NCBI GenBank assembly: GCA_963971225.1
Contig: OZ020269.1
Span: forward strand, 101,276,405-101,340,404
Direction of reading: 5' to 3'
Length of the DNA stretch: 64,000 nucleotides
Origin: Melieria omissa
Lineage: Eukaryota > Arthropoda > Insecta > Diptera > Ulidiidae
In this document: positions 4,671-64,000 of the stretch, one piece after another
Layout of the letters: every line of letters starts with the position of its first letter
How positions within the stretch are numbered: position 1 is the first letter of the stretch
The notes under the pieces: model-generated
Seen by the model: only the letters and a program-made list of their open reading frames with translations
What the model was told of the DNA's origin: nothing
The model's database searches: none
Translations under genes and position numbers: made by a program

Positions 4671-5975
4671 AGTCGAGATCCACTAACAGATGTAACTCTC
4701 GACTTTTGGGTCTAGCTGGGAGTTAACTATGGCTTCCTTATAAATAAAGAAAATTTCATATTTGGCTTAAAAAAATATTTTTTTTATCGAAAAGAATTCC
4801 ATCAGTTTTCTTCTATATTTTTAACAAAACTCATATTTAAAATTCATTTCTTCCACCAAAAAAACATTCTTTTAAATACACGCAGATGAAATGCGCCCGA
4901 AAGCATGCTCGGTAAATTTTCAAACTTGCGCTTAATATTTCGCGTCACACGCTGCCGCACAGCTTAAGGCGGCTTTGGTACGCTTTTTCGGGCGCTTTGT
5001 TGCCTTATCTTCTTCAATGCGTATTCTGCTGCTGCTTATGGAGTTAACGCCTAACAGTATCTTCTCTACGCGTCGCGGCGTTCGCACTGTCCTTGTACAC
5101 ACACACTCACTCACACATAAACGCGTAGATACTGTGGGTTTATTTAAGTATTGCGAGCACGTAGTCAGCACCACTTGGCTTAAATACGCACTCACAGATA
5201 CACACATACACACACACACGAACAGTTGGACATGAACACAGATAAATGCACACACACACAATGGCATAAGCGGACACACGCCCACCAGCGCTCGGAGATA
5301 AAGTGTGATATAAAAATTGTGTATGGCATACACAATGAAAAGCCAACAACAACATTCAGCCAACCAATGAAAAAAAAGCAAGAAAGAAATTCCCTAAATT
5401 CCTTTTATTTATTTGCTGAGTACGTTTTTGTCCTCACTAATCAGTTTTTCTACATTCTGTTCGTCCCATCACGCGTCGCGCTGCCATATCGCTCAAATAA
5501 TGCCGACTGGCTGTTTCGCTCATTCTCGTTCATGATTCGCTGCGGTGCTCAGTTGAAAGCTAATCATATTAAGATTTGCTCTAGAAAAAAGAAAACAAAA
5601 TTTTAAGCGTATTTTTGAAATTTGCTCTCACGCTTGCAATAAGTCGAAGGATTTTTCAATTTAAAGTCATCCTAAATGTATGCTATGAATTAAGATTTTG
5701 ATGACATACGATTATTTGTGTAGGTACGTGGAAAACGTTTTCTAGGGCATACTTTTAGGTGCTAGTAGCGAAGGTCACTGCTAACAGTTTTTTGCAGAGG
5801 AAAGTCCTTGAAGGTTTCAATAGTAAAATGAAGACTATTTCCACTTGCAACTTTTGGCGTCACACATTCCTAATTTATTTCAGTGTCGCTCGGAACCTTC
5901 AAAAGATCTTTCGCAAAATTAGTTTCGCGTATGCAAAGCGAAAGTTGCAGCTTTCTTCTTGTGTTCACAAAGCAA
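4671..5975. other. Non-coding DNA with (CA)n microsatellites and motif copies
   Basis: No gene is recognised. Interrupted (CA)n tracts lie at about 5096-5120 and 5195-5260, and the ORFs across them are low-complexity. Copies of the dispersed word occur at 4894-4907 (GCCCGAAAGCATGC), 5671-5683 (CCTAAATGTATGC) and 5747-5759 (minus orientation). Confidence 0.6.
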
Positions 5976-6850
5976 AGAATCAAAATTGTCCCATGCAGCT
6001 GCAGCCAAAGTTATTAAAAAGTCCAAGAGATTTTTTGAAAAGTGGGTGGGGTAATACAAAGTGTTGCAAAACTGTTGATGACTTTTTGAATGAGGGTAAA
6101 GGAAAGTGATGTTCAAAGACCAGAAAAATGTGATGCAATGGTTTCAATATCTTTCTGCGTGAAACCAAAATCAAAGTTGTTTAAATTTTGTTTGCCTTAA
6201 AATGATCATAAGACGTTTGTTCGAAATAAAATTACTGTATGGTCTTACGATCTTGAAAAATTCTTATTCAAGGACGCCTGACCCAAGCGAGAAAGAATAA
6301 AGACCCCAATTGATTGGGGTTGACTTTTTCGGATGAAGCTACTTTCAGGGTCAAGTTTGGGTGAAACATACCTGATTAGAATGAACTATTGATTTCATTT
6401 CAACCCCCTGGAAAAGTGAACGTCTGGGTGTGCTTTTTAGAAAGCAGATTTGTCTGCTTAGAACTTTTCATGAAATATTTTGATTTGCTTAGAATGCTCC
6501 GAAATTTATAAACCTTATAAAGTCGGTCTAGATGTTTGGACCCAATTCCCAATATTGGATTTGGAAAAAAGGACAAATCGGAGCCGCTTCTGCCTCAACT
6601 CGAAGGAGGAATAGGAATTTTAACTCTTTTAACTATTAACTCTCCCAATCCTCGGACGCAAACCTCATCAAACACATCTTAGACATTGTAAAGAAAGCCT
6701 GTTCACAACTTGAAGCAGCTTTCAAGAGTAATTTTAAAGATATGTTCTTCCCACATTGAAAGTCTAATGAAAATTACGCTGAAAGCCCCATTGATAATAA
6801 GCCTCGGGATTCGGAGATAGCAGACACTGACAAAGACTGTACTGCTTTTT
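5976..6850 (+). pseudogene. Wreck of a Tc1-like DNA transposon (IS630-Tc1-mariner superfamily)
   Basis: Discontinuous plus-strand frames with many stops resemble a Tc1-type transposase. Around 5990-6090 a helix-turn-helix-like segment reads AAAKVIKKSKRFFEKWVG.YK, followed by a second-helix region. Around 6325-6440 there is FSDEATFRVKF, equivalent to the first catalytic aspartate segment, then a GKVNVWVCF segment. Around 6640-6720 SQSSDANLIKHILDIVKKA resembles the usual Tc1 SPDLNPIEHLWDIxK end of the DDE domain. No open frame survives and I could not identify terminal inverted repeats. Assignment rests on these aligned fragments in the correct order. The exact family is unknown. Confidence 0.55.
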
Positions 6851-7228
6851 AATTAATAACGCCATTGCATTCTACTTTTATATTAAATTAGCAAAAATTG
6901 CCATAAATATCTTCAGTAGTTTCGAAAAATCTTTGGACACTTTCTTCTGCAACAGACTGTACATAAAAATATATGAATTCTAATATTAAGATCATGCAGC
7001 TCGCTCTGCGCAACTGCGAGCCACCTAGTAAAGGCAACACAACACGACAACGCTAAACGGGCATTGGTCAGTAACATCAGCATTGCATACTTTTAGGGTA
7101 GATGGTATTTTTGAGGGAATTATCACAGAATCGGTTCGAGGCAATCTTGGAATGTTTGAGAACAAGTTGAGCTTCGGGCAAACAAGTAGAAAAGGCAACC
7201 GGATATTAGCACAGCCGCAACCGGAGCG

Positions 7229-7375
7229 CCTATGAAAAAGCTCCCAACTCCCGTTCGGAATCGGCATAAAACTGTAGGTCCCTTCCAACCCTGTAGAAAT
7301 TCGCACGCACAAAACGGATGGTTGCGGGTAGCTAGGCCTTAGTCTCGTAATCAGGCTGTCATGACAGTCAAGAAG
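7229..7375 (-). repeat. Dispersed ~150-bp repeat, copy 1 (minus orientation)
   Basis: The reverse complement matches 40198-40355 closely over about 150 bp. Shared blocks include GATTACGAGACTAAG, CTACCCGCAACCATCC, GTGCGTGCGAATTT and GATGCCGATTCCGAACGG-type text. The two copies are 33 kb apart in opposite orientations. The family was not identified, and it could be the 3' end of a LINE or a SINE-like unit. Minus-strand similarity may extend somewhat further (towards 7025). Confidence 0.75.
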
Positions 7376-8189
7376 AGAAGCAACCGGAGTAGTGAACTGC
7401 TTTAAAGAATTTCAGTGTTTTATTTTGTCACAATTCAGCGATACGAACTATGCCTGATTTGACCAACAAATAATATTTTATAAATTATTTATTTTATTTA
7501 CAACAATATTATGGAACTATTCAACTACTTAGTTTAAAAACTTTGGTAGTTCTAACCACAAAATTGGGTTATAATATTTCATTGTTCACAGAACTGTTTA
7601 AATCAATAATGTCGACTCAATGTAACATTATCAGATTTGAAATCAATGAGTAAAGAGGTTTGCATTATTCGGGTATAGTTTATTATATTCTCATTGATTC
7701 TATCAGCTTTACCAATAGAGAGACATCCCATCCAAAACAAGATCGAGTGTTGAATTTTAAAAGGCAACATCGGAGAAACCATTCATAAAGTTTAAAATCA
7801 CTCACCTAAAATTTCATTTAAACTTTCCAAAAAAATATATGAATTCTTATTTGCTAGAAACCGAAAATAGAGCAACTAAATTCACGAAAAGTTAGATTTA
7901 TCAAAAACAAAAAATTCAGTATATACAAAAACAACAATCACCATAATGGTGAAGAAGAAATATGTCACCGAAGCTGATGAAAAAGCGCTTAGAGTGTTTG
8001 AAAGTGTGTGTGTGTGTGTGTGCGAGAGTGTTTACTCGTGCGTTGCCGTTATAAGGGAGAAGGGGGCACTGTAGAGCATTTTGAAGGCTCCATAGTTTGA
8101 GAAAATTTGACAATCTTCTTTTTTATTATAACAAAATGTTTTCCAGACAAGGTGCAGTAAAAAGAAATTAAAAAAAATGCTTTAACTAA
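7376..8189. other. AT-rich non-coding DNA
   Basis: No gene or recognisable element. A short (TG)n run lies at about 8006-8021. The rest is unremarkable AT-rich sequence. Confidence 0.6.
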
Positions 8190-12883: not shown

Positions 12884-12933
12884 TGTAACGATGAGACACC
12901 CTGTCGCTGTGCTATGTATGAATGTTTTTACGG

Positions 12934-12947
12934 GCATACTTTTAGGC
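12934..12947 (-). other. Exact copy of the dispersed 14-mer
   Basis: GCATACTTTTAGGC in the context TTACGG-motif-AAACAC. It lies inside the LTR-like segment at 12.9-13.2 kb. Confidence 0.9.
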
Positions 12948-13067
12948 AAACACTTTAGAGTACGGCCAGCTTGCTATAATTTCGATTTGACAAGGATGGC
13001 TCGCGATGGTAATGGGATGTGCGAGAACGATCGAGCGATAGTCCAATTGAAATGTTACGAAAATTAG

Positions 13068-17839: not shown

Positions 17840-20455
17840 AAGTTATATAAAAGTTGTATAAGAGTAATATAAGCATACACGATTTATATAATTGTCATAT
17901 AGCTGTCATATCTATACTTAAAAGTTGTATAAAATTGAAACAATAGTTATAAAAGATTATAAGAGTAATTGAACTCTGATATAAGAGTTATAAAACAGTA
18001 TAAGAGATTATGTAATAAACACATAAAAGTGACACATTTATAATTAACACTTAAAAGTTGTATAAGAGTCATACAACAGTCATATTAAACTGTAGGAGCT
18101 TTGAAAATTGTCATGAAAGGGTATAATATCAGAGAAGAGTATAGTATAAGACAATTTATAATGAACACATAAAAGCAATACACTTTAAGTAAACACTTAA
18201 AGGTTGTATAAGAGTCAAACAGCAGTCATATAAAAATATAAGTGTCATTAAACACTCATATAAGAATTGTACTATAGTATAAGAGAATCTATATGTAATA
18301 AACACTTTAAAGTGGAACTTTTAAAAATAATATTTCAATTTGTATAAGAGTTATACCGCAGTTATATAAGGAGTGCAAAGGCCATAAAAATGTCATTTGA
18401 GAGTTGTAGTATAATATAAGAGAATTTATAATATGCACACAAAAGGTGAACACTTAAAATCAACAGTTAAAAGTTGTATACGATTCATACAGCACCATTT
18501 ACTCATTTTATATGACTGCTGTATGAATGAAAAGTGTATATAAGAGTTATGAAACTATCATATAATAGTTATACTACAGTCCAAGAGAATCTATAATGGG
18601 ATTTTTATAAAGTAAAATGTTAAATAATAACACCTAAAACTTGTATAAGATTTATACAGCAGTTATATTAGGGTATAAGAGTCATAAAATTGTCATATGA
18701 GAGTTAAAACTTTAGTATAAGAGAATTTATAATGAACACATAAAAGTGGAAAATAAAAAAAACGAGTTATTCAAGAGTCATATATGCATGTTAGAGTCAG
18801 AAAAAATTCAAATAACATTGATATAAGAGTATAAGAAATATACAAAATTCATATAACCGTCATTAGATAGTATAAAAGTTGTATGTTGTAAGATATGTGT
18901 TATATGGTGTTGCATAACTATGATATAAGAGTCAAATAAGAGTATATGATTTTTATTATTGACGTATTAGTCAAGTCAAATATCAGTATAAGAGAAGACA
19001 AGTTTCAGTGTAAGAGAAAAGTTCATTATTTTTTAGAACATATGGAAATTTTGTACCGTATAAGAGTGTCAAGACTTAAAGATCCTTATTTTATAATCGA
19101 GAGGAGAATTCATAATTTTTTGCAAAATTATTCTCTCATACTGGTATAGGAGTGATAGAACCTGTAGATCCAAATTATGTAAACGAGAAAATAATTAATT
19201 ATTTTATGAAAATTTAGAAATTTAATATTAGTTAAGTGAAGTCACCGTATAAGAGAAGTCAATTCTCAATATAAGAGAATAGTTCATTATTTTGTGCCTG
19301 GAAGTTTTATACCGTATAAGATCATCAGGATCTCTAGTTTTTTATCATATAATCGAAAAAAAAATTCTTTATTTTGTGCAAAAATATTCTCTTATACTGG
19401 CAAGTCTCAGTATAAGGGAAGAGTTCACTATGTTATGCAAAAATGGAAATTTTATATTAATTTACTGACAAGTCTCAGTATAAGAGACAAGTCTCAGTAT
19501 AAGAGACTCATTATTTTTTGCAAATATGGTGGTGTTATACCGTATAAGAGTAACAGGACCTGTAGATCCGAATTATATAATTGAGGAAGGAGTTAATTAT
19601 TTTATGTAAATATGGACATATTATATTAATATACTGTCAAGTCTTAGTATAAGAGAAGAGAAGTCTCAGTATAAGAGAAGAGTTCATAATTTTTGTTTTT
19701 GGAAATTAATTTGTGCCTGGAAAATGTATACCTTATAAGATCGTAAGGATCTCTAGATTTTTATCATATAATCGATAGAATAATTCATAATTTTGGGCAA
19801 AATCATTCTCTTATACTGGCAAGTCTCAGTATAAGGGAAAAGTTCACTATTTTATGCAAATATGGACATTTTATATTAATATACTGTCAAGTCTCAGTAC
19901 AAGAGAAGACAAGTCTCAGTATAAAATGTGCAAAAATGGAATTTTTATATTCATATACTGTCAAATCTGCGTATAAGAGAACATAATTCGCAGTATAAGA
20001 GTTGTTTATTTTGAGTAAATATGAAAAATGTACGCCTTTTAAGAGTGTCAGGACCTGTAGATTCTAATTATATAATCGAGAGAGGAATTCATAATTTTGT
20101 GCAAAAATATTCCTTATACTGACGAGTGTCAGTATAAGAAAACACAATTCTCAATATAAGAGTTTATTAATTTGTATAATTATAAAACTTTTAATAAAAA
20201 TTAAAAAAAAATAATTTTGTATAATTATATACCTTATAAAAGTGACAGGACCTGTAGGTTCTAATTACATAATCGACAGAAGATTTCATTATTTTGTGCA
20301 AAACCAATCTCTTATACTAACAAGTCCCGATATAAAACAAGGGTTCATTATTTGGTTCAAAAATTGAATTATTGTATCGTATAAGAGAGCCAGTATCTGT
20401 AGATCCCAAACACATATAAAATGCAAAAGTGACTTGTAACAGTATAAGAGAACAT
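17840..20455. repeat. Degenerate array built on TATAAGAG words
   Basis: The word (A/C)(A/G)GTATAAGAG(A/T) recurs dozens of times. The first part (17.84-18.9 kb) has units of roughly 100-170 bp with AACACTTAAAAGTTGTATAAG and GTCATATAA blocks. The second part (19.0-20.4 kb) has longer units with CCTGTAGATCC, ATTATATAATCGA and CAAGTCTCAGTATAAGAG. The two parts look like successive variants of one expanding sequence. No coding content is seen. Confidence 0.8.
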
Positions 20456-21975: not shown

Positions 21976-24900
21976 TCGTTAGGAATGGAATTGGTTCAAC
22001 GACCCTCAGAGACCGAACCGCATATTATACAAAAACTTGTTTAACTTATTGAAGGCTGATTGTCATAAATCCTTTAGTGAACATATCTTGACCAAGGAAA
22101 GTTATTTATGGGTCCTTTCAAGCAACATAGGATAGCCCATGTCCTCACTTATTGAGGTCAAAAAGAAAAGTCTTTGGCAAAATATTCCTACTGTCTTTCA
22201 GGCTTCTGATGTTCTGATCTAATGTAAAGAACACATGGGATTCCAAGAACACCTCATACTTGGCAGTAATGAATGCATGGGGAGCGCTCTACACAACCCA
22301 GTAATGAACTTTCACATACGGAAATGTCTCTCCTAGGGGGCAACGATTTGACAGCCCTCTAAACTAAGGAATACCAACGGTAAACCTATCATCCGCCATG
22401 CGTTCTGACAAAACTTCAATTGATTCACATAATCAATACAAAGCATTAGGCTTGTTGAAGCTCTACGCTCTCAAATGGAATTAACAAGGACAAACTCTAG
22501 CAAATCAATGTACTTCTTTCATATTTCAGAAACAATATTTCACTGATATTTCAGCTATTTCAATGAGCTTTGAAACTCAACAGTTGCTGAACTAATCTGT
22601 ATGGACTTGAATGTATTTCATCACTTTCGCTCAGTTGAGGAAAATAGATGATTTCCCACCTCTTGTCACTGTTTATGTAGCCAGACGCCACAGTTCAGTG
22701 TTTAAAAATCTGATAAATCGCAAATAAACACATACAAATGATAACAGCAAAAAGATGCATTAAAAATTAAGCACTCGAATGCTGAAACTAGTGCACGTTG
22801 TCGCATTTCACGTGTGCGGTCACGTTCCATTGAAAATTTACTACAATTTCAGGGTTTTCATCGGATTGCACGGAATAGTTGGTGTGAAAACAGCTGCACG
22901 GATTGTTTACAAACGTAAGCATATCAACACTCACACTAACATAAACACACACATATACAAGAAAAACAAAAGCATGTGTGAGTTGAGAGAGAAACCCCCT
23001 ATGGCTGTGTGTGTGTCTGCAGTTTAATTAGTTTTTCTATTTATTTTGATACTAACGTTGCAGTTTCTTTATTTTTCTTCACATCCAGCTATTGCACTCT
23101 CTCTTTCTCTATCCCTCTTTATTGTTTTTGTTTTTTTAATTTTTATTTTTTCTTTGCAATTTGTTTTCATTGGTTGTTATTGTGGCTGTTTCATGCATTT
23201 GTTTTTGCAACGTGCTGCAAGCAAATACAATTTAAATTCTGCCCGTTTTGATTTAGTATTTTTTTTTCAATTTCTCTCTTTTCTATGCTATACGCAACCA
23301 TTCAATGTGTGTGTGTGTGTGTATGGGTTTGTTTGTGCAAAATTTCAATTTAATTCTGACATTTTTTTCGCCCCCTTTTCTCTCTCATATTAGATGATGT
23401 GATTGGATTTGATTTTTTGTGTTGCGCACAAAAGTAGGCTATGCATGCAGGCGCTTTTCAACAACATTGTTATGTTGTGTATTTGTTTAAATATAATGCA
23501 ATTTTAATTGCACACTTTTAGGCTGTTGTGTGTGGGGTTTGGTGCGTTTTCCATACCATTATCATTGAATGAATCCAGTTTGTTTTGTGTCACATGAATG
23601 AAAAGCAATTTTTTGCCTGTTGCATAGTTTTCCAACATAATGGAAAACGATTTGTTACGCTGCTGAATAAATTCGCATTTATTTTGAATATGAGAGAAAA
23701 TGTGTTTGTGTGGGTTTTGCGTTGGTGTTTTTACATAGTATCCTATAGTTTTCAATGAATTTGAATGACAGTTGTGTTAAAGACTCAGGCTGATGTTTCA
23801 GCAGCTATTCAGGTTGAATGAATTTGTGTTTGAACAATTGCGGAGTTTTAATATTGATTTTTTTTTATATTAAACTGAACTGTCGTTTGTCAATAACTCT
23901 TTTAATATCTTCAGTTCAAAGCTGAGTGTTTATTTTTGTTATTCTTATCTGCAATTTTTTTGAAATTTTTAGTTTTGATATTTTCTTATTGTGTGGCAAA
24001 ATGTCATGTAGGCGGTTCGATAATCTCTTTTGGCTAAGCATGTAACAAATCGTGAACACCGCTAATATACCTCTTACGTACGAGAAGGTCAAATGCAACT
24101 TGAATGTCTCATCAAAACTGTATCGAATTGTCTGTTTGACTTAGCTTATATGATTTATTACGTTTCACGCACATCCACCTGGATTTTTATTTTTCTATTT
24201 AATTATTTACCTATTTTGCCATTCAATTCAACCTTTGCCATTATTTATTGTGTCCCACACACCGTTCATCATTCATGCAATAATGTATACATCAGCAATA
24301 CGTCAATGCAATCGTCAACATCACGTGCCTTATTTTAGCTCTTATTTTTACAGTAGTGTTGTTATTGTTGTTGTTTGTAGTTGTTGTGGTATTGCTAACA
24401 ACTGCAATCGACACTTTTTCACTCTTAACGTCAGCAACATTTGCTTCACGTTCGTTGCATGTAACACAACACAATTTTTTTTTCAACGCCCAAATGTATG
24501 CTACAACCAAATAGTTGAAACTCAATTCGAAAAGTAAATAATAAAAATAATAAAAAAAATAAAATAAAATAAAATAAAATAAAAATCAAACTAAAAATGA
24601 AAATACGCACAACATAAAAAGCAACCATCACAACCAATTTAAATTGAACTATGTGAAGTGTCACAAAAATTGCAACCCTTTTTCATATGAAAAATGGTAA
24701 AATTGTGTTGTTGCAAGCGTCTGCTGAAGGCGTTAATGGTCAGTTGCAGGTAGCTGTTGCACTGTTGTGTGGCGCGTCCAAGAGTTGCTCCACTTGGCCG
24801 AAGCGAATGCACGACACGGCAATTGTTTGTGACACATTGCCGCACGCTTCCGACTTTTCATGGCCCACATAAATATGAAACACACATCTGCATGCATGCA

Positions 24901-28608: not shown

Positions 28609-28759
28609 TTTTTTTGAAAACTCAAAAGTAGTGTCACTTAAAGCACTGTAACTTGTAAACTAATGGTCGGATTGACATATAATTTTGACAGTAAGCCTAA
28701 AAAGGTTCACAATTTCGAAAAAAATATTGATTTAGTATTAGTGCCGCCATCTATGTGTC

Positions 28760-30895: not shown

Positions 30896-31757
30896 CTCAA
30901 CTTTAAGCCCGTCCGATTAGTCGGCCAAACAAGTGGATTCCGCCAATAATCGGCTTCGTATGCCTTGGCTTATAAGCACCTTTGGCCAACAATCGGCCTC
31001 GACTTATAAGCAGCTTTGGCCAACAATCGGCCTCGACTCATAAGTACCTTTGGCCAATAATCGGCCTCGGCTCATAAGCACAATCGGCCAATAATCGGCC
31101 TCGGTTAATAATCGGCTTCGGCCAATATTCGGCCTCAGCTAATAAGCAGATTCGGCTTCAGCTATTAATCGGCTTCGGCTAGAAATTTCTTTCTGCCAAA
31201 AATCGATTCCGTTTTAAAATAGACTTCGCGCACCATGACGTCTAAAAGTATGCAATGTACAGCAAAATCAACCCTTAACAAAAATTTTTTGCCCGATTTC
31301 GACCGATTAATCGGCCAAAACACGTACATTTAACTAATTTAGCTTCTGCAAATAACCGCCTCGGCTAAAAACCGGCTTCGGTTAATAATCGGCTTCGGAC
31401 AAAAATCGACTTTGTCTTAAAACCGGCTTCGGCTAAAATTAAAGTAAAAATTTTCACTATGTAATAAATCCCAAAAGTACAATGACACCAAAAAATTTTT
31501 TGCACGATTTCGACCGATTAATCGGCTAAAAACCACTGATTCGGCTAATTTGGTTTCGGCCAAAAATCGACTTTGGGTTAAAATCGGCTTTGGCCCAAAA
31601 AAGTGGACTCGGCCAATAAGCGGCCTCGGAACATAATCAGATTTGGCCAGTAATAGGCCTTCGGTAATAATCGGTTTCGGCCAATAATCAACTGCCGCCA
31701 AAAAAGAGGCCAAAAGCCAAATTGTTCACCAGTAATAGTTCTCAAAAGTTCCATGAC

Positions 31758-31771
31758 GCCTAAAAGTATGC
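31758..31771 (+). other. Exact copy of the dispersed 14-mer
   Basis: GCCTAAAAGTATGC inside the AATCGGC array, in the context CCATGAC-motif-AATATAC. Confidence 0.9.
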
Positions 31772-32131
31772 AATATACGGCAAAACACAATACTGAACAA
31801 TTCTTGTTGCCTGATTTCGACCGCTAAATCGGCCAAAACACGGACATTCAACTAATTCGGCTTCAGCCAAAAATCGACTTCGGCTAATTTGGCTTCAACC
31901 AAAAATCTACTTCGGCTAATTTTGCTTCAGCCAAAAGTCAACTTCGGGTAATTTGACTTCAGACAATAATCGACTAAGGCCGAAGGCCGAATTGTTCGCT
32001 ATGTGGTGGTTTCCGAAAGTATCATGATGCCCAAACGTATGCAAGCACGACATAAAACAACACTGAAGCAAATTTCTCCGCCCAATTTCAAAAGTCTAAT
32101 CGGCCAAAAAACGTTCTCAAAAGTCCTTGAC

Positions 32132-43929: not shown

Positions 43930-46042
43930 TTAATTTAATTTTAATTTAATTTTAATTTAATTTTAATTTAATTTTAATTTAATTTTAATTTAATTTTAAT
44001 TTAATTTTAATTTAATTTTAATTTAATTTTAATTTAATTTTAATTTAATTTTAATTTAATTTTAATTTAATTTTAATTTAATTTTAATTTAATTTTAATT
44101 TAATTTTAATTTAATTTTAATTTAATTTTAATTTAATTTTAATTTAATTTTAATTTAATTTTAATTTAATTTTAATTTTAATTTAATTTTAATTTTAATT
44201 TAATTTTAATTTAATTTTAATTTAATTTTAATTTAATTTTAATTTAATTTTAATTTAATTTTAATTTAATTTTAATTTAATTTTAATTTAATTTTAATTT
44301 AATTTTAATTTAATTTTAATTTAATTTTAATTTTAATTTAATTTTAATTTAATTTTAATTAAATTTTAATTTAATTTTAATTTAATTTTAATTTAATTTT
44401 AATTTAATTTTAATTTAATTTTAGTTTAATTTTAATTTAATTTTAATTTAATTTTAATTTAATTTTAATTTAATTTTAATTTAATTTTAATTTAATTTTA
44501 ATTTAATTTTTATTTAATTTTAATTTAATTTAATTTAATTTTAATTTTAATTTAATTTTAATTTAATTTTAATTTAATTTTAATTTAATTTTAATTTAAT
44601 TTTAATTTAATTTTAATTTAATTTTAATTTAATTTTAATTTAATTTTAATTTAATTTTAATTTAATTTTAATTTAATTTTAATTTAATTTTAATTTAATT
44701 TTAATTTAATTTTAATTTAATTTTGATTTAATTTTAATTTAATTTTAATTTAATTTTAATTTAATTTTAATTTAATTTTAATTTAATTTTAATTTAATTT
44801 TAATTTAATTTTAATTTAATTTTAATTTAATTTTAATTTAATTTTAATTTAATTTTAATTTAATTTTAATTTAATTTTAATTTAATGTTAATTTAATTTT
44901 AATTTAATTTTAATTTAATTTTAATTTAATTTTAATTTAATTTTAATTTAATTTTAATTTAATTTTAATTTAATTTTAATTTAATTTTAATTTAATTTTA
45001 ATTTAATTTTAATTTAATTTTAATTTAATTTGAATTTAATTTTAATTTAATTTTAATTTAATTTTAATTTAATTTTAATTTAATTTTAATTTAATTTTAA
45101 TTTAATTTTAATTTAATTTTAATTTAATTTTAATTTAATTTTAATTTAATTTTAATTTAATTTTAATTTAATTTTAATTTAATTTTAATTTAATTTTAAT
45201 TTAATTTTAATTTAATTTTAATTTAATTTTAATTTAATTTTAATTTAATTTTAATTAAATTTTAATTTAATTTTAATTTAATTTTAATTTAATTTTAATT
45301 TAATTTTAATTTAATTTTAATTTTAATTTTAATTTAATTTTAATTTAATTTTAATTTAATTTTAATTTAATTTTAATTTAATTTTAATTTAATTTAATTT
45401 TAATTTAATTTTAATTTAATTTTAATTTAATTTTAATTTAATTTTAATTTAATTTTAATTTAATTTTAATTTAATTTTAATTTAATTTTAATTTAATTTT
45501 AATTTAATTTTAATTTAATTTTAATTTAATTTTAATTTAATTTTAATTTAATTTTAATTTAATTTTAATTTAATTTTAATTTAATTTTAATTTAATTTTA
45601 ATTTAATTTTAATTTAATTTTAATTTAATTTTAATTTAATTTTAATTTAATTTTAATTTAATTTTAATTTAATTTTAATTTAATTTTAATTTAATTTTAA
45701 TTTAATTTTAATTTAATTTTAATTTAATTTTAATTTAATTTTAATTTAATTTTAATTTAATTTTAATTTAATTTTAATTTAATTTTAATTTAATTTTAAT
45801 TTAATTTTAATTTAATTTTAATTTAATTTTAATTTAATTTTAATTTAATTTTAATTTAATTTTAATTTAATTTTAATTTAATTTTAATTTTAGTTTTAAT
45901 TTTCATTTTAATTTAATTTTAATTTTAATTTTAATTTTAATTTTAATGTTAATTTTAATTTTAATTTAGTTGTAATTTAATTTAATTTTAACCTTATTTT
46001 AATTTCATTTTAGTTTAATTGTAATTTAATTTAATTTTAATT
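43930..46042. repeat. 2.1-kb pure A/T array of an 11-bp unit, AATTTAATTTT
   Basis: About 180 head-to-tail copies of AATTTAATTTT run from 43930 to about 45888 with very few changes: occasional units of 6 or 5 bp more or less and rare single G substitutions near 44424, 44725, 44887 and 45031. The array then degrades to 46042. There are no cytosines over almost 2 kb. High homogeneity indicates recent expansion. Confidence 0.97.
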
Positions 46043-49000
46043 CCTCAAAATTTTCACTTGAAATTTCATCATTGAAATATATTTTTTCGATTTTATAAAA
46101 TACGATAATTGATTCATTAATCACGCACATTATATTCTCTACAATGAATCTTACATTCGAGTGAATTCTGACAACTTGATTGCATTATTCCAAACCCCAA
46201 CTAAACCTCTTTATCAATCAATTTCTGACGTTATTAAATTTCCACAATTTCTTCAAACACTCATTGCAACTTCTTAGGTGCTTGAGTACACTTTAGCCTA
46301 TGATCCCTTCAACTTTAACCCACTGCTGGCTTACATTTTCTTGTACTAAACAGGTTCCACCACCACGCAACAACATTCACAACATCGTCTCTGGTATCTG
46401 CGAAGAACCAAACTACACCTTCTTTGTGGGATATTCGAGCTGGTCAGACAAATATTTTGGGGGGAAAAAACCAAATCATATTGTGCGTTATAATGAGATT
46501 TCTTTTATCTTTATTTCCTCTGCTTTTATGTTTGGACCCCTCATGCTTTCACAAACCAGATGACAGCTTGTACGGTTGTGAGTGTGTGTGTTTATTTTTT
46601 GTACAAATAATCCCATTTTAAGGGTCAATGACGCGTGCGGTTTGTAGTCAACCTCAGCCTTTCCTTTCTGCATGTGTGTTGGCTGCCTGGTTAGTGGCTG
46701 ACCAAAAATCCAATTGTTACAAATGCGCGGTACAACAAATCTCATAGAAAATAAGTAAAAAGTTTTTGGAAAAATCTCTTGCATACTTGGAGGCGCACGC
46801 CAAAAAATGGGCCTTAAGTTAAGCAACTTTTCATGGAACTGTTGGGATGAAAATGTTGTCTACCTTTTTGTTGCCTTTGAGCTGTTTCTGTTGCCTTTTT
46901 TGTGGCATAATTTTAGGCAGCGGATTTAGTTTAAAGTCATCAGTCAGCGGTTGGGACTCGAGATGATGGATCATAGGCTCTGCTTTGTGGCAATAAAATT
47001 GTGTTCACTAGTCAAGCAATGCAGTTCACTGAAAAATAAAATCTTAAGGGTCTACTTTTAGGCTGCATTCCACACTTTATTTAAGTCATTTAGGTAAAAT
47101 TTGTTTAAAGTTCTAATGAGAGTCTTAAAAAATATTCTTTGTTATATAAATTAAGACCTGAAAACCATTATATAAGAAACAAGTTAACACTGTTGAGTTT
47201 AAGCGTCCCTTTTGACTGCATACTTTTAGGCCACATTTCAAGTTTCATCTTCAAATGCCGATTATTGTCAGCCACTGTTATTATTGTGCATTTGGTTTTT
47301 GTTGTTGTCACTTCCACCTTCTTTCACTTTAACGCTGTTATTAGTTTTCATCCAACACACTCACACATACACACACATACACACTTGGACATTTGTAATT
47401 GAATTTTGTGTTTGGTTTGCATGGTTCGTTGTTGGGTTTTTTTCTTTGTGTTATGCTCCGAACGTTCCACCATAACAATAGCAGCGACAACAGCAACAAC
47501 AACAAAAACAACAACATGTAATAGTAGACGCTGCCCTACATACTCCAACCACCGTTCGGACAGCACTTAGTGCTTGTGGATCGTCGTTGGCTTGTTAGAA
47601 TTCTTGGTCAGCTTGGCTTGGCTTGGCTGCCGTGGCCAGTGGTTGGGCAGGCATTGCCCGTAAAAGGGGTTAATACCAGATAATTGTATGGCCAATATTA
47701 TTTTCCCTCTCATGTCATTGCCATTATTATAGTGAGAACTGTTGTTAACGTTGGCTATGTGTTTTTTAGTTGTTGTTGTTGTTGTGTGCGACCTGGCACG
47801 TTTCAATTTTCTTGAAATTCTATCAGCTTGCTCAGTAGCGTCACAAGAATACATTCGCAGAGGCTGAACTTGAACAACAACATAACGTAGAAAGAGCAGC
47901 GCTTTCTCCTAAGAAACGCCTTGAAGTTGGTGCGCACCTGGTCACCTGGGCATACACTTCATTTCACTTCACACCAACCAACAGCGCACCGCCACACACG
48001 TAAATCCCTCGGTTTATTGCCGACAGTCAGTGAAAACCATGTACTGAAAAGTCTTAGCATACTTTTAGGGTTTCACAAATGCAGCTTACGTGGCCTTTCG
48101 ACGCCTTGGTATCAAGCGAACTTTTGCACTCAAATACTCGGCACACGGAAATATTGAAACAATTGTCCAATGCCTAAAATGTCTTGCTTGCTTTAATGGC
48201 TCCTAAAGTTATGCTTTAAAAAACTTTAAAAATGCAATTTCGCCAAATTGCGCCAGGTAGCGCCCTTGACTGCATGGCGTAACGCACAAATGCTAATGCA
48301 ACAACAACAATAACAACAACAACACGCAACACATCGTATGTGCTTACACAAGTAGGTCGCCTAAAAAGCTGCCAACATTCTTTTGCAGCAATATTTGCGT
48401 TCTGCTGCAACGCTTTCACCTCAGCAATTTGCGAGTGCAATGGTGATTGTTGGCTGGTTTTGGTTTGGTTTTTTCCACTTTCATACTTCGCTGAGTGCAA
48501 CTTGTTGTTAATGTTGTTGTTACTGCACGTTTCACTGTTGCAGTTTGCTGTGTGTGGAAATTGTTGTTATTGTATTTTTGTATTGTATTTGTTATTGTCA
48601 TCATCATCATCATCATCAGCACTGCAGTGGCATAAAAATCCAACCAAATCGAAACACAATTGCAATAAAAATTTCGCTTTGGTGCTGCACCTTGTCGCGC
48701 CTAAAAGGCTGCAATGGCAAAAGTGCATTGGTTCAGTATAGGGGAGTGAAAAGCAGTTGCAGAACAGCGATAAGGTTATTGCATGAAAACTGAAATGAAA
48801 GGAAGAGATCAAGGTGAGCGCTTGCATGTGGCCTCGCTGTTTTCAATATAGAACGAAATAGTAAACAGCAAGTTCCATGAAACAATAACAACAACTTCCG
48901 TGAAACAATAACTATAACAACAACAATATACACACACACAGATATAAGAGCTAACAATTTGCGCTTTGGCAATGGCAGACAAACGCAGAGAACTCATCGC

Positions 49001-49785: not shown

Positions 49786-50863
49786 TGTTTTATCTTCATT
49801 TGAAGCTAGAATTATACAACACTTTCAATTCCACCCTGAAAGTATACTTTCATTTCTGGTGCGCTTGAGATATGCAGAAAGCTCTCACTATGTGTTGCAC
49901 CATATCACAGCATGCTTTTAGGGGTGCTTATTCAAAAAATTTAATAAGTAAAAAACTAGCACATTGTATACGAACGTGGTTGAAAATATTTCCAAATGTA
50001 GGTAAACAACGCACATGTTCACATTATGCAAAGTTCCAAGCTCTTTAAGTTCACTTTTCCCCACTTTGTGCCGCGCTCTGAGTATTGAAATACAAACAAG
50101 TGTACCACCAGACAAGCATTGTTCAGGCCATATCAGCTCGCCACACCTCACCGCCTCAGGCTTTCAATTCTCAACTTTGTAGACCGCCAACTGTTTACCT
50201 GCACTGGCTGCCTTTCTTGCAGCTGCCATTTGTTCTCACTCGCTTTCATCTTTTGCTTTCGGCAACAATTGTTTGTTCACTGTAAACCTTATTCAACTTT
50301 CACACCATTTCTATGTTTTTTTTTTTAATACAACATTTCAGTATTCATTTCAAGATATTTATACAGATGCTACAAATATTTATGGTCAGCACTAACATAT
50401 TGCTAACGTAGTAAAGTTGATTTGTTGTATGAAGTTGAATGAATTTTTTATTTGTGTTTTCTTTTTCGGAAAATTGTTGAAAGTAAAATGCGTTGATGTG
50501 GGTTGTAAAAGGGATATGAAATTTGTGTGTATGTGGACACTTAAGGGTGATAACTTTGAATTAGAAGTGATTGGGGTTCTCTGCATTGCTTCATAGATAG
50601 AAATGCTTGAAGAAGCGTGGAAGTCAAACATTAAAACAAATAAGAGAGACGAAAAGGATACAAAGTCGTTGTTATTAAACTGTTGTCCTTCCTTTAGATG
50701 TTAAACAGGTCTTTAACATCTAAAAACAGGTCTTTAACATCTAAAAAGGATATCTCTAGGTTTCTTAGGAACGCTTGTCCTAATGAACGCTGGGTAGTGA
50801 CAGAGAAGTTGTCAGAGGTGGTCTGTTTCATTTGGATAGCGATAGAAGTAGAAGAGTATTTTA
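49786..50863. other. Non-coding DNA
   Basis: No gene is recognised. A two-mismatch motif copy lies at 49910-49922 (GCATGCTTTTAGG). A short direct duplication lies at about 50706-50748 (ACAGGTCTTTAACATCTAAA twice). Confidence 0.55.
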
Positions 50864-53470: not shown

Positions 53471-54900
53471 CCACACGTTGAGTTGTGAAATATTATTATA
53501 TATACAACTAATCTGATCTCAAAAGTTAAAAAGAAAACTTCTTAAAAATTTACTATAAATCAAGTTTTTTTTTATTCTCATTTATTTCACTATTAAAGCA
53601 AATATTGAGCCACAAAGTTCACCATTACCTTGAATTATTTTCATCAAAACAAAGCATTTAGCAAGCAATATCACCTCTCCACTTTCAGCCATCACTCACT
53701 GGCTTCCCACAATATATGTACACACCTGCTCTCGCCTTCAATATATCGTTCAACAATCGCTCATTGACAACAACGTGTAATGTCGCAGCTTAGTAACCGA
53801 AAATGTCTGCGTTCAAATGTGTTTTTCGTTGTGCGTTCAAGTCGCTGTCATTGCGCGCCTAAATGTATGCTGTGAAAAATACAAATCACTACACAAATGG
53901 CGCATATTATCACCTTAACAAATTTATTATCAACACACACACAAACACACACCAGTGCGACACGGCGGCCAGTGTCTGTTCGCACACTTCTCCCCCAACA
54001 CTTCACTGTTGTTTCCACCAAAATGCCGCTCACCCAACACAATTGCTCGCCGACCCATTATACACACTACCGGCGGCCAACTCAATTTCGGTCACGAGAA
54101 ATGAAATGCCCATAAAAGACAACGTCGCGCTGGGCGTTGATGTGAATGGTCGCTGGGGGGAGGGGAGGGGAGGCGTTACCTAGGCGCAAAGATGCCACTT
54201 AGGGCTTCTCCGCAACTTGCAAAGTCGTGGCCACAGCCCGAAACGTTAGCTGTATTTACCGCGTTGGACGTGGCCAGGCGGGCGGCACATTTATTCATTT
54301 ATTCCTCCTCAATGCCCTCGAAACGAGTCAGCAATAATTCGAACGAAGCGCAACGAAACGAAATTCCCGAGAAGCGAGCATTTTCTGTATGCGGCCGCTG
54401 GCCGGTTTTTGGGCACTTGATGAGCTACTTTTATACTGTTTTTTTCTGTATGCTTTTATGTGGCACGTACATTTTTTTTCTTTCATCCCCCTTAATTCTT
54501 GTCAGAATTCGCTTGGTTTTCAAGTTAAAGTCTGCTCGGTGTCGCTTTAAGTGAACGCAGAAAGTGTGCGAAATCTCGAGAGTATAATTTATTGTTATCA
54601 TTTGTTGGGCTAAAAAGCAAAATAACAAAAACACAAGAACAAAGCAACAATAGCATAGAAAAACGAAAAACGAAGACGCAAATAGAGACGAAGGAACCAG
54701 CAGAAATGAGAGAAGCCCAAAAATGAAAACAAATTATTGCTGAAAATAGCGCAAGAAAAGACGAAAAGGAAAAGACGCTGAAGTAGGCAGCCACTGCGAA
54801 AAAAACGCTAATGCCAACGGCGCATTTCAGCATTTCACGACGTACGACTGTGCGACAGCACGTCTGTACGCCAGGGCGTAAATAGTAAATTGTATTTAGA
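53471..54900. other. Non-coding DNA, GC-richer towards the right
   Basis: Contains a motif copy at 53857-53870 (GCCTAAATGTATGC) and a CA tract at 53935-53953. A GC-rich part at 53,960-54,420 has a 120-codon frame (54192-54554) with no recognisable domain. No gene is called. Confidence 0.5.
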
Positions 54901-57560: not shown

Positions 57561-58480
57561 CATTATTGGTACCTACACTCTGTGCATTATTGTTTCCCCG
57601 CAATCTCTACTAATAAATTTTCATTTTGCTCGCGTGTCATTATCCATGGCTTTTTACATATCACTACACATTAGCATCAAGTGATGGTAAAAAAGATTGG
57701 ATTATTTATGGCTGACACTTTGGCTATTCCCAACAAGTATGGCAGCAAAAAGCGATAAATATGGACACATACGGACAGGACAGATGTATGTTGGCAATTC
57801 GAATGAGAATTGCCAGAGACCGTAACATGCGAGAGGAAAATCCAATTTTTTATGAACATAATAAATGCGTTCAATCATCATCAATGCCCGACTACACGAG
57901 TACACTACATCGGTTGTAGTAGAAAAGGAAACTAAACAAAAACAAAAATACAGGAAAAAGATGCTGGAAACTCCATGAGAAAAGACAAGAAAAAAAAACA
58001 CAAAAAATGTGCAAATGTAATAAACAATTCCCGATTACTTATAGCCATTGAATATCTACATTTATATGGCGAAAGGAAAAAGACGAAGTCGAAGTCGAGT
58101 TGGGCGGCCGAAACAAATAAATATCAGTTGGAGAAAGACGAAAAATGCTTGTACGCCAAATGAGCAGAGACATAAAGTTAACTAGCAGTAGACGAAAATA
58201 AAATGCGAATGGCACTTAAATCGAATGATTGGGCTGGGCATTTGCATTGCTGGCCAGCATCGAGTGTACGCGTAATGGCTGAGAGGCAGTGAAGTAGAAT
58301 GGCGGAACAACTTCCTTTTGGATGTCGTTAAAAGAAATGAGATGAAGAAGAAATGCGAAAACAAAGCAGAATTGTGGAAGATTGAACAACAGGGTTGTTT
58401 TGCATAATTAAATGGCAGCCTAAAGGTATGCCATGAAAAAAATTTCACAAATATTTGGTTAGAGTGGCTACCTTAAAGGC
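57561..58480. other. Non-coding DNA
   Basis: No gene is recognised. A one-mismatch copy of the dispersed motif lies at 58418-58431 (GCCTAAAGGTATGC), at the edge of the next array. Confidence 0.55.
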
Positions 58481-61285
58481 TTTTATTTCTAGTATACTTT
58501 TGGGATAATTTTTTCTAGTCATTTTGAAACTTCAATAGGGAGGTTTTTTTGCCCTGAAATTGGTCTTTGTGGATAGGTTTTGGAATGATTTCAATGTGCA
58601 AAATGTACTACAGATAGACATAGACAAATTTCCGGAAATTTTTGAAACTTTAATGTAAATATTTTGATACTTTAAAGCGTTGACTTCTATTGATTTTTGA
58701 AGTCATTTTGCTGAATAAAAAGTAAATACTACAAGTTTATTTTTCGGCAAATATTTAGATGTACAAATGGAACAAAATTTCAGATCATTTGGAAGACTTC
58801 AATAGGAATATTTTTGTAACCCAAAATTTTTAAATTGAAGCATAATTTTTAGGTAATTTTGTTAGATAAGAGTACTGTAATGTTTAGGTATCTTCAAGGG
58901 ATTAAATGGGACAAACTTGTTGACCATTTGGGAGACTTCAATAGGAATATTTTTGGACCCAAAAGTCTTTCACTTGAAGTATAATTTTGAGAGAAATTTG
59001 CTGCATAAAAAGTACTATAATGTATTTGTATTATCAATGGAACAAATTGGACAAACTGTCTGTAAGTTTGAAGACTTAAATAAAGATGTTTTCGTACTTT
59101 AAAAAGTTGTTGGGATCATTCGATTTCAATAGAGATATTTTCATACCTTAAAGTCTTTCATTGGCGTAAAGTTTTTGAATGATTTCGCTGGATAAATCGA
59201 ACAAAGTTTTTGGAGTTAATTCAGTAGAGTTCCATCGAGATTTTTTCGTACCTTTTAGTTAAATTTACTTTTGGAGTCATTTTGCTGGATAAAAAGTCCT
59301 ACAAGTTTGTTTATCGACAAATATATAAATGAAACAAACTTTCAGACTTCAATAGAAATATTTTCGTACCCTAAAATCTTAAGTTTTAAGCATATTTTTG
59401 AGGACATTTTTCTGGATATAAAGTACTAAAATGTTGATGTATCGTCAATGGTACAAATTCGACAAATTTTCTGGTCATTTGGGAGACTTCAATAGAGATG
59501 TTTTCGTTCTCTAAAGTCTTTCACTCGAAGTGTATTTTTGAGATAAATTTGTAAAAAGTACTATAATGTTGATCTATTGCTAATGGAACCAATTGGACCA
59601 ATTTTCTGGTAATTTGGGAGACTTCAATAGAGATGTTTTCGTACCTTATAGGTTTTTGGGTCCTTTCAACATTTAAATTTAAATATTTTTTTCGATATTT
59701 TCATTCCTTACGGTCTTTCATTTGTAACATAATTTTGAGATAATTTTGTTGGATATAAAGTACTGTTGATGTATCGCTAATGGTACAGATTGGATAAATT
59801 TTGTGGCCATTTGGAAGGGAGATATCTTCAAGGGAGTTATTTTCGTACCTTAAAATCTTTGATTGTGATAAGGTTTTAGTGTGATTTCGCTGGACAAAAA
59901 GAAAGAAGTTCATCATCAATAAGGTTCTTTAGAGATATTTTTATACCTTACGGTCTTTCATTTGAAGTATATTTTTGAGATAATTTTAGTTTAGTTTAGC
60001 TTATGTCAGGCAATGGACTATAATTTTGCGGGATAAATAATATTATTATATATATTATTGTCAATAGAACAAATTAGGCCAATTTTTTTGGGATATTTGG
60101 AAGACTTCAATAAAGATATTTTTTTACCCTAAAGTTTTATGGTTGGGGATGTTTTGGATGTTTTAGCTGTGTAAACTTACTGAAGCTGAAGAAATCAGAA
60201 AATTATCCGGCCAAAGTCTTTCATTTGTAGTATACTTTTAGGGTAATTTTCTAGATACAAATGTCAATGTATAACATGTTTATGAATTAGTACGATTCGG
60301 GAACAATTTTTTGGAATTTTTTTAATTTCAATAAAAATATTTTTGTAATTTTTTGTTTAATGTGGCAGAATTTGGGAATGAAATTGCTGCATAAAACGTT
60401 AAAAGCAGTTTGGGAGCATTTTAAAAAAATTAGAAACAAATTTGGAAAAAAAAATTATTTGTAGTATACTTTTAGGATAAAAATATCTAAAAGCAATCAA
60501 ATTTTCTTGCAAAAAGCATTTTGGGACCATTTCTAAAATTTTCTACTGATATTTTCGTACATCAATGTTTTCCATTTGTAGTATACTTTTAGGATCAAAA
60601 ATACTAAAAGTAACTAAATAATCCGGTAAAAATTATTTTGGGACCATTTTGACAACTTTAGTAGTGACGTTTTTCTACCTTAATGTCTTTAATGTGTAGT
60701 ATTCTTTTAGGATGGAAAGTATTAAGATTAAGCAAACTTTCTTGTAAAAAGCACTTGTAAAACTGTAATAGTGATATTTTTGTACCTTAATGTCTGAAAT
60801 TTTTAGTATACTTTTAGGATACAAAAAGCTTTGGAAGCAAGCAAATTTTCTGGTAAAAATCATTTTGGGACCATTTGCAAAACTTTAGTAGTGATATTTT
60901 GTGCCTTAAAGTCCTTTATTTGTAATATACTTTTAGAATAAAAAACTTTTAGAGAAAGACTATTTTATGGTAAAAATCATTTTGGGACCATTCGTAAAAT
61001 TGTGTAATGATATTTCTGTACCTTAAGGTCTTTCATTTGTAGTATACTTTTAGGATAAAAAGTACTAGAATGAAACAAAATTTTCATATGCAAAACATTA
61101 ATAGTAATATTTTGTACCTTAATGTCTTTCATTTGCAGTATACTTTTAGGATTAAAAGATACTAGAAGTAATGAAATTTTCTTGTAAAAAGTTTTTCGGT
61201 GCCTTTTGTAAAACTTCAATAGTGATATTTTCGTACCTTAATGTGTTTCATTTGTAGTATACTTTTGGGATAAAATAAATAACTA
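58480..61285. repeat. Degenerate tandem array, ~115-135-bp units, containing a TATACTTTTAGG box
   Basis: Units contain ACTTCAATAG.GATATTTTCGTACCTTAA.GTCTTTCATTTG.AGTATACTTTTAGGATAAAAAGTACTA. In the left part the box has drifted to AAGTATAATTTTGAGA. From about 60.2 kb it is well kept as GTATACTTTTAGGA, near 60233, 60466, 60578, 60810, 61042, 61138 and 61257 (drifted copies near 60701 and 60926). The box differs by two or three bases from the minus-orientation dispersed 14-mer. Minus-strand ORFs are repeat translations (YPKSILQMKDIKVQ). Confidence 0.85.
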
Positions 61286-62580: not shown

Positions 62581-62684
62581 ATTTACTTAAATCTAAAATT
62601 GAGCAGAATACTCACAAAATGGCATAAAAGTATGCATTCAAATTTACTAAAATACATTGGTGTTTGAAGAGCATGCATGTAATG

Positions 62685-62698
62685 GCCTAAAAGTATGC
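62685..62698 (+). other. Exact copy of the dispersed 14-mer
   Basis: GCCTAAAAGTATGC in the context GTAATG-motif-ACCAAC, the second unit of the local tandem array. Confidence 0.9.
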
Positions 62699-62754
62699 AC
62701 CAACTTTGACTGAAATATACTTAAATCTAAAATAAGCAAAGTACTCTCGTGATG

Positions 62755-62768
62755 GCCTAAAAGTATGC
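62755..62768 (+). other. Exact copy of the dispersed 14-mer
   Basis: GCCTAAAAGTATGC in the context GTGATG-motif-ACCAAA, the third unit of the local tandem array. Confidence 0.9.
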
Positions 62769-62835
62769 ACCAAAAATCAACAGACATATATTTAAATCTA
62801 AAATTAGCACGTAATAGCCTTTAAGTATGCTCTAA

Positions 62836-63488
62836 ATTTTACCGAAATATATTAAATACATCAATAAATAGAATTGATCTGGCTACCCACGTAATACCAT
62901 TGAACAATACTAATGGTTCTTACGCCTAAAAGCATATTACATTGAACATTTAATAGTGTGGAAACAGAACAAAACAAGAACAAGAACACAATATAACGAG
63001 AACAAAACAACAATAATAATGTCGCATGTGCTCAAGTGTTTTCGCTTTAAAGTATGCAATAATTTAACGTCTTAGAATCATATGAAGCATTTCGCCTGAA
63101 AGTATGCACTTTAAAACTATTTCGCAACAAATTTTGTCTAATTAAACACAATATATTAAAAACATAGTTTTTATTTAAAATTAATAAATAGTTTAAATAA
63201 ATTAAATAATTTTTTGTACCCAGCATACTTTTAGGCGCAAAAATTATGTATACAAAATTAAAAAAATGATTTTTTTAATTTATTATTAAACAATAATTAT
63301 TATATTATAATTATTATTTAAATAAATCTATTAATATAATAAAATTTTTTTGAATGAAAATTTTTTGCTTTAATCTTTTATTAAAAAATAATTATTTTAT
63401 TTAAATAATTAATCAAATTAATTTATATAATGACATTTTTTAAATAATAAATTTTTCTAATTTTGTATGCATAACTTTTGCGCCTAAA
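62836..63488. other. AT-rich non-coding DNA with motif copies
   Basis: Motif copies and variants at 62924 (GCCTAAAAGCATAT), 63044 (GCTTTAAAGTATGC), 63094 (GCCTGAAAGTATGC) and 63223 (exact, minus). The DNA between them is A/T-rich with short runs of AAATAATTATTT type. No gene is seen. Confidence 0.6.
63223..63236 (-). other. Exact copy of the dispersed 14-mer
   Basis: GCATACTTTTAGGC in the context ACCCA-motif-GCAAAA. Confidence 0.9.
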
Positions 63489-63778
63489 GTAGTAAGTAGT
63501 AAGTAGTAAGTAGTAAGTAGTAAGTAGTAAGTAGTAAGTAGTAAGTAGTAAGTAGTAAGTAGTAAGTAGTAAGTAGTAAGTAGTAAGTAGTAAGTAGTAA
63601 GTAGTAAGTAGTAAGTAGTAAGTAGTAAGTAGTAAGTAGTAAGTAGTAAGTAGTAAGTAGTAAGTAGTAAGTAGTAAGTAGTAAGTAGTAAGTAGTAAGT
63701 AGTAAGTAGTAAGTAGTAAGTAGTAAGTAGTAAGTAGTAAGTAGTAAGTAGTAAGTAGTAACTAGTAAGTAAGTAAGT
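63489..63778. repeat. (AGTAGTA)n heptanucleotide array, about 40 copies
   Basis: A nearly perfect 7-bp repeat (GTAGTAA in register) runs from 63489 to about 63764, then breaks into (AAGT)n text. It begins directly inside a GCGCCTAAAGTA word that looks like the start of the dispersed 14-mer. The long minus-strand ORF over it (repeated TTYYLLL) is an artefact of a 21-bp triple unit. Confidence 0.97.
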
Positions 63779-64000
63779 CAAAAAGTAAGTAAGTAGGTAA
63801 GTAGGTAAGCAACTAATCCATTTTTTTCCTACAAATTTTCCATTTGCTCTACAACTACTTATAGAAAATGCACCTAAAAGTATGCAACCATAACTGAAAT
63901 TAATATAAATTAAACTATCTAACCAGTTTTGATTTTCTAATTTTGCAAAGTGACCATTCTAAAAATTTATATTAACTATTGCGCCTAAAAAATACTACAG
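63779..64000. other. Non-coding DNA with motif copies, to window end
   Basis: After degenerate AAGTAAGTAGGT text there is a one-mismatch motif copy at 63872-63885 (ACCTAAAAGTATGC) and a partial copy at 63986 (GCGCCTAAAAAATAC) just before the window ends. Confidence 0.6.

Follow-up and report, generated by a model that had tools for sequence, protein, structure and literature searches.

The closest described systems for the element considered here are binding sites of Suppressor of Hairy-wing (Su(Hw)) in Drosophila melanogaster. The gypsy insulator is reported to carry 12 such sites in ~340–350 bp (PMC2374998, PMC7168160), and the 1A-2 insulator, which lies between yellow and achaete, is described as having two putative sites 49 bp apart (PMC2374998). 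Endogenous sites mapped by chromatin immunoprecipitation (ChIP) gave the consensus TGT(TA)GC(AC)TACTTTT(GAC)GG(CG)... (Adryan et al. 2007, PMC2374998), and the site as a whole has been presented as three modules covering roughly 26 nt, with an AT-rich upstream module (PMC5825117). Here we analyse 64,000 nucleotides of the fly Melieria omissa (Diptera, Ulidiidae; assembly GCA_963971225.1, contig OZ020269.1, positions 101,276,405–101,340,404; the window), through which a 14-bp word, GCCTAAAAGTATGC, is scattered on both strands. We predict from its sequence that this word is very probably the recognition site of Su(Hw).

Counted on both strands of the window, GCCTAAAAGTATGC has 8, 21, 37 and 53 cumulative matches at 0, 1, 2 and 3 mismatches, compared with means of 0.001, 0.015, 0.34 and 4.35 (maxima 1, 2, 5 and 21) for 1000 letter-permuted words. 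Shuffling within 200-bp blocks (100 shuffles) gave maxima of 0, 1, 2 and 12, and 100 dinucleotide shuffles gave a mean of 7.4 and a largest count of 15 at up to 3 mismatches, where 53 are observed. As a stricter control we used 118 words derived from the window itself with 6 G/C, for which the 99th percentiles were 1.8, 4.8, 13 and 46 and the maxima 2, 14, 31 and 60; none of them matched the counts of 8, 21 and 37 at 0, 1 and 2 mismatches, while at 3 mismatches a word from a local repeat can attain 60 against the 53 of GCCTAAAAGTATGC. The enrichment is genuine and non-compositional, an artefact of composition being ruled out by the permuted words, the block shuffles and the permuted matrices described below. 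A first-pass annotation of this DNA had listed the copies, and its 8 exact and 13 one-mismatch copies all lie at the coordinates and on the strands it gave. All eight of the two-mismatch copies it named also exist, two of them displaced by 1 bp (true positions 5670 and 35096), but it overlooked eight others (24488, 46781, 60230, 60464, 60581, 60806, 61042 and 61138).

The reverse complement of the word, GCATACTTTTAGGC, looks Su(Hw)-like. In Adryan et al. 2007, where the consensus was then found, this sequence forms the core of the site that Su(Hw) binds in Drosophila (PMC2374998). The two earlier suggestions of a site for a DNA-binding protein and of a chromatin or pairing element both fit, as the word matches the Su(Hw) binding site; the known motif had gone unrecognised, and most of the implied novelty is lost. 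Independently of the window, we built a 20-column Su(Hw) matrix from 15 ChIP-bound D. melanogaster sites taken from Table 1 of PMC2374998; of its 20 rows we left out five, namely three marked by a star, one that gave no hit and one duplicate. This matrix finds 34 sites of at least 14 bits in the window, compared with a mean of 1.0 (maximum 4) in 60 dinucleotide shuffles, and none of 200 column-permuted matrices reaches 34 hits (maximum 6). When exact P values were computed against a background of independent bases, ln P fell below −12 for 34 sites, where 0.79 would be expected, and below −15 for 13, where 0.04 would be. Furthermore, the published degenerate core WGCMTACTTTTVGGS has 22 matches at up to one mismatch, against 0.11 expected, and the gypsy 12-mer consensus YRYTGCATAYYY occurs 7 times, against 0.8 expected, with 6 of the 7 on copies of the word.

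The agreement extends beyond the word itself. Sixteen of the 37 copies with at most two mismatches lie inside three arrays, whose limits we set at 31.2–35.1, 60.2–61.3 and 62.6–62.8 kb, and the other 21 lie outside them, which rules out one larger repeat family, as the first-pass annotation had held. From the 21 outside sites plus one per array we derived a count matrix of 24 deduplicated sites, chosen by word similarity only. Aligned in the expected register, it correlates with the D. melanogaster count matrix at r = 0.88, the maximum of 5000 column permutations being 0.64. The three bases flanking the 14-mer on each side had no influence on site choice; they score a mean of −0.33 on the D. 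melanogaster matrix, compared with −3.87 (sd 0.79) for random draws (0 of 5000). This holds on the upstream side (0.01 vs −1.93; 0 of 5000, P < 0.0002) and on the downstream side (−0.34 vs −1.94; P = 0.0008), and the correlation over flank columns only is 0.63 (P = 0.007). The weak flank agreement noticed earlier is correct, and its letters fit the outer positions of a Su(Hw) site.

Pairwise flank identity was measured to 60 bp on each side for 20 of the 21 outside-array sites, the one nearest the window end being excluded. Two stretches stand above background, the 14-mer itself (z 37) and the 10 bases upstream of it (z 6.7); everywhere else out to 60 bp, identity is at background, so that the shared sequence stops ~10 bp upstream and at the downstream end of the 14-mer; the upstream bases are T-rich at −9 to −5. 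Such a footprint fits what would be expected of a three-module Su(Hw) site, most clearly for the upstream and central modules, and it is protein-sized, not that of a mobile unit. Together, the core, the agreement with the D. melanogaster matrix, the outer positions and the AT-rich upstream side suggest that these sequences belong among Su(Hw) sites.

The footprint bears directly on another proposal of the first-pass annotation, the insertion core of a tiny mobile unit. On this reading, a miniature inverted-repeat transposable element or similar would have spread the copies, and the resemblance to Su(Hw) sites would be secondary. The 16 copies in arrays could be read in this way, as could four divergent pairs with 74–84 bp spacing, which resemble short terminal inverted repeats, and a 49-nt inverted repeat that overlaps the site at 63220. 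However, flank identity is at background from −60 to −10 and from +14 to +60, none of the 21 outside-array sites has an exact 3–5 nt direct repeat at the edges of the footprint or of the 14-mer, and the bases at the outer positions agree with a protein's binding matrix that comes from a different species. In addition, 18 of the 19 outside-array sites in a self-BLAST list (without 46781 and 48699; with low complexity masked, and with the 63220 inverted repeat missed) lack a partner covering the site, the exception being a 47-bp partner of the site at 7082. With neither shared flanks nor target-site duplications found at these 20 and 21 sites, respectively, we reject the mobile-unit core as extremely improbable.

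In the mechanism that we propose for a Su(Hw) site, the word would be recognised by Su(Hw) as a 12-zinc-finger architectural (insulator) protein, separate finger groups of which would contact three parts of the site: the central GCATACTTTT, the G/C side downstream of it and the AT-rich side upstream. Su(Hw) is known in insects as a protein that divides chromosomes into regulatory domains. The finger assignment comes from the Drosophila literature, and the assignment of letters to modules, which is our own reading, is provisional. Sites would have accumulated singly in noncoding-looking DNA and as passengers in local tandem arrays. We infer that the Su(Hw) of this genome may bind these sites and that their clusters may insulate; Su(Hw) partners and insulator activity would be carried over from the Drosophila literature. 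In D. melanogaster, 53–63% of matches better than e^−15 were reported to be ChIP-enriched (PMC2374998), so that, were the protein to act in the same way here, one would expect binding at a good share of the 13 best window sites.

Several observations weigh against a Su(Hw) assignment. Just downstream of the word, at +14 to +18, identity among the 20 sites is at background. Position 14 is A in 18 of 21 outside-array sites but in 2 of 15 D. melanogaster sites (Fisher P = 2e-5), and a scan blind to position 14 (at least 14 bits) likewise gives 18 A and 3 G. C at position 6 (GCCTAC) is rarer, with 2 of 22–24 sites in column-blind scans (2 of 22 at 14 bits) compared with 5 of 15 in the reference. 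The median score of the 24 deduplicated sites is 16.3, compared with a leave-one-out 20.5 for the reference, and the sites at 60–61 kb read GTATAC, not GCATAC. The differences in position 14, position 6 and score fit either a shifted lineage preference or a small reference set. The sites were described as little conserved in mosquito, bee and beetle, and in Apis and Anopheles no clear orthologue of the protein was reported (PMC2374998); this conflicts with the placement of Su(Hw) in the insect ancestor elsewhere (PMC5094011), and because of that conflict our confidence in the Su(Hw) assignment is slightly reduced. Finally, a CTCF-type string, AGRKGGCR, occurs 13 times, compared with a shuffle mean of 6.2, which is as many as the highest count among 200 shuffles, so a second protein may be involved besides Su(Hw). 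This string was one of five controls (CTCF, BEAF/DREF, M1BP, GAF and Zelda), none of which exceeds its shuffle maximum in the window; the Su(Hw) core in the same comparison has 12 matches against 0.01. A general richness in architectural-protein sites was rejected on this basis, with all five controls within their shuffle maxima, though CTCF equals its own.

Some of the same observations could be taken to mean that another zinc-finger protein, either a Su(Hw) paralogue or an unrelated factor, binds the word, with the motif inherited or convergent. The preference at position 14 and the conflicting reports on how far Su(Hw) orthologues reach (PMC2374998, PMC5094011) would be in keeping with such a protein. 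We nevertheless consider it very unlikely, given that agreement over the 20-bp register is high and includes positions unused in site choice. For the Su(Hw) site, which we continue to prefer, the individual features are as follows, with site strands in Su(Hw) orientation and bits from the D. melanogaster matrix.

4892–4911, minus strand: Su(Hw)-like site CGAGCATGCTTTCGGGCGCA, 17.6 bits, ln P −14.5.
5667–5763, both strands: divergent pair, 5667(−) and 5744(+), 14-mer centres 77 bp apart, 15.5 and 21.5 bits.
7082–7101, plus strand: Su(Hw)-like site ATTGCATACTTTTAGGGTAG, 16.0 bits, matching the gypsy 12-mer consensus; its one self-BLAST partner (47 bp) is at 35.0 kb.
12931–12950, plus strand: Su(Hw)-like site with an exact core, 14.6 bits.
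23423–23526, both strands: divergent pair, 23423(−) ATAGCCTACTTTTGTGCGCA and 23507(+), centres 84 bp apart, 24.0 and 16.6 bits; ATAGCCTACTTTTGTGCGCA is the GCCTAC variant also present in some D. melanogaster sites.
24485–24504, minus strand: strong site GTAGCATACATTTGGGCGTT, 24.4 bits, ln P −19.3.
31237–32148, minus strand: satellite-like TCGGCCAATAATCGGC units with sites at 31237, 31755, 32026 and 32129, 17.1, 23.5, 14.0 and 22.2 bits, with self-BLAST partners.
35030–35049, minus strand: another TCGGCCAATAATCGGC-type repeat copy, past transposon-type open reading frames (ORFs), 23.5 bits, self-BLAST partners at 31.2–32.2 kb.
38548–38567, minus strand: site ATGGCATACATTTAGGCGCT, 21.5 bits.
38698–38717, minus strand: site ATTGCATGCTTTTAGGCTGT, 19.5 bits.
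46778–47234, plus strand: four same-strand sites at 46778, 46902, 47047 and 47215, 11.9, 19.1, 15.7 and 14.6 bits, the last three also below ln P −12.
48054–48073, plus strand: site TTAGCATACTTTTAGGGTTT, 20.3 bits.
49834–49926, both strands: divergent pair, weak 49834(−) (3 mismatches) and 49907(+), centres 76 bp apart.
53854–53873, minus strand: site ACAGCATACATTTAGGCGCG, 15.6 bits.
58415–58505, both strands: divergent pair, 58415(−) and weak 58492(+), centres 74 bp apart, 16.0 and 11.0 bits; 58492(+) resembles the 60 kb repeat unit, with a 38-bp self-BLAST match (58475–58512) to 60.2 kb.
60227–61273, plus strand: tandem array of 117-bp units with weaker GTATAC-type sites, those at 60227, 60461, 60578, 61039, 61135 and 61254 at ln P < −12, plus weaker ones.
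62622–62830, minus strand: local tandem repeat with four word copies 62–70 bp apart, of which 62682 and 62752 pass ln P −12.
63041–63110, minus strand: two sites, 63041 and 63091, 15.3 and 18.9 bits.
63220–63239, plus strand: site CCAGCATACTTTTAGGCGCA, 20.4 bits, its downstream half in a 49-nt inverted repeat with 63440–63488.
63869–63888, minus strand: top-scoring site GTTGCATACTTTTAGGTGCA, 26.4 bits, ln P −21.1.

Thirteen of the 34 matrix sites at ln P < −12 lie inside the arrays and 21 outside. The TCGGCCAATAATCGGC-type repeats at ~31.0–32.3 kb, together with the remnant at 35.0 kb, hold five sites at this threshold, and fragments related to the 117-bp array are also present at 58.5 and 59.9 kb. 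The outside-array sites with partial partners are 7082 and, through its inverted repeat, 63220. The inverted copy of the 63220 region has 49-nt arms that are 86% complementary, and within 63440–63809 it passes at GCGCCTAAAGTAGTAAGTAGT straight into a 45-copy satellite of a 7-bp unit (AAGTAGT), which looks as if it had grown out of a Su(Hw)-like site.

Carriage of this kind raises the question of whether the sites are of Su(Hw) type but have no insulating role, being decayed passengers of satellites or transposons. Transposons are reported to carry Su(Hw) arrays, gypsy being the case in point with its 12 sites (PMC7168160), and the 16 array copies would fit such an origin; yet the 21 copies outside arrays have kept their outer positions, and the ChIP enrichment of comparable D. 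melanogaster matches (PMC2374998) also speaks for bound sites. Non-functional passengers are thus plausible for the arrays and less so for the other sites, and as an account of the whole set we find them unlikely.

Outside the arrays, the predicted Su(Hw) sites are clustered. On a permissive list of 47 sites there are 15 neighbour gaps of 20–250 bp against 7.7 expected (P = 0.002), and neighbours within 100 bp comprise 4 divergent, 0 convergent and 3 same-strand cases. The four divergent pairs exceed the 0.72 expected within 100 bp (P = 0.005); without the pair that holds a 60 kb-type site, 3 remain against 0.69 expected (P = 0.03). A single convergent pair is 144 bp apart. The excess of divergent pairs is suggestive only, as the spacing was noticed post hoc and the site list is permissive. 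Within the window, motif identity, enrichment, footprint shape and clustering are established.

The window also holds mobile and repetitive sequences. Pfam searches of 10 of the 31 ORFs gave hits for four (two RVT_1, one mariner transposase and one DUF4817); no host gene was recognised in these searches or among the composition-filtered ORFs of 65–119 aa read by eye, and no Rfam match reached the gathering score for a structured RNA in the window. An uninterrupted 366-aa ORF with mariner transposase domains lies at 27559–28659 on the minus strand. Among the best 120 of its 3227 matches, a Drosophila palustris sequence ranks first, at 87% over 73% of the query, followed by one at 95% over 91%. 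Mariners move between species, and this one is possibly a recent insertion. For each of the two reverse-transcriptase ORFs, the 120 hits listed included no named fly; taken together, the transposon proteins suggest an arthropod. At 32270–34544, TCGGCCAATAAT repeats seem to be interrupted by two overlapping ORFs: one for reverse transcriptase, apparently 5′-truncated, and, on the reverse strand, one with a DUF4817 helix-turn-helix domain. Further repeats are a 2.1-kb array at 43930–46042, made up of 193 copies of the 11-bp unit TTAATTTAATT with 96% matches, and repeated AAGTCTCAGTATAAG-type units at 19467–19998; the 14-mers CAAGTCTCAGTATA and AGTCTCAGTATAAG each occur five times in the window.

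Site density is high. Thirteen predicted sites at ln P < −15 fall within the 64 kb, 10 of them outside arrays. The D. melanogaster genome is ~120 Mb. For that species, 2,281 sites were predicted at ln P < −15 and ~60 bound sites were reported per 3 Mb (PMC2374998), equivalent to ~1.2–1.3 sites per 64 kb, the predicted figure using the genome size just given. A later ChIP-chip map of six factors gave each of them 2,500 to 6,600 sites (PMC2797089), counts with which the bound density there could be as high as ~3.5 per 64 kb. The excess in the window is roughly tenfold, a figure that is only approximate because the matrices differ, with 42 sites behind the published one and 15 behind ours. Among the literature matches listed (titles and abstract starts; the phrase 'su hw' unmatched), no paper concerned Su(Hw) site density outside Drosophila.

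We tentatively raise a genome-wide proliferation of Su(Hw) sites in this lineage, itself a rather doubtful extension, in which ~10 times the Drosophila density would have arisen through satellite and transposon carriage and through birth outside repeats, with a shift to A at position 14 and with the divergent pairs, ~75–85 bp apart, acting as two-site insulator units. The sites of the window are new, densely packed members of a kind already described, and the remaining interest lies in their density, clustering, array carriage and position-14 shift. An anonymous repeated word gains an identity as a regulatory site that can be recognised in an unannotated genome by its sequence alone. Should the rest of the genome prove equally dense in such sites, this would offer a natural case of insulator-site proliferation, in which the relation of boundary strength to site number and the carriage of sites by satellites and transposons become testable; a density confined to this stretch may mean that it marks a strongly insulated region.

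Compared with the gypsy insulator, the repeated blocks at 31–35, 60–61 and 62.6–62.8 kb are alike in holding several Su(Hw)-type sites each. At the thresholds used, the window arrays have 4 to 6 sites, and their spacing is wider than in gypsy, at 62–70 bp in one array and mostly ~100–120 bp or more in another. Around these arrays we identified no element of gypsy type, no systematic search for a long terminal repeat (LTR) element having been made; the ORF nearest to the 31–35 kb repeats carries RVT_1. The predicted divergent pairs have a spacing comparable to that of the 1A-2 pair, and for 1A-2 itself simultaneous binding of both sites has been doubted (PMC2374998). The endogenous Su(Hw) sites of D. 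melanogaster are closest, many of them single sites with the same 20-bp motif in the same register (PMC2374998), and the window sites differ from them in having mostly A at position 14. They differ also in arrangement: alongside the ~60 bound sites per 3 Mb, 40 of 41 motif-bearing D. melanogaster fragments were reported with one match (PMC2374998), whereas the 34 sites predicted in the 64 kb of M. omissa are often clustered.

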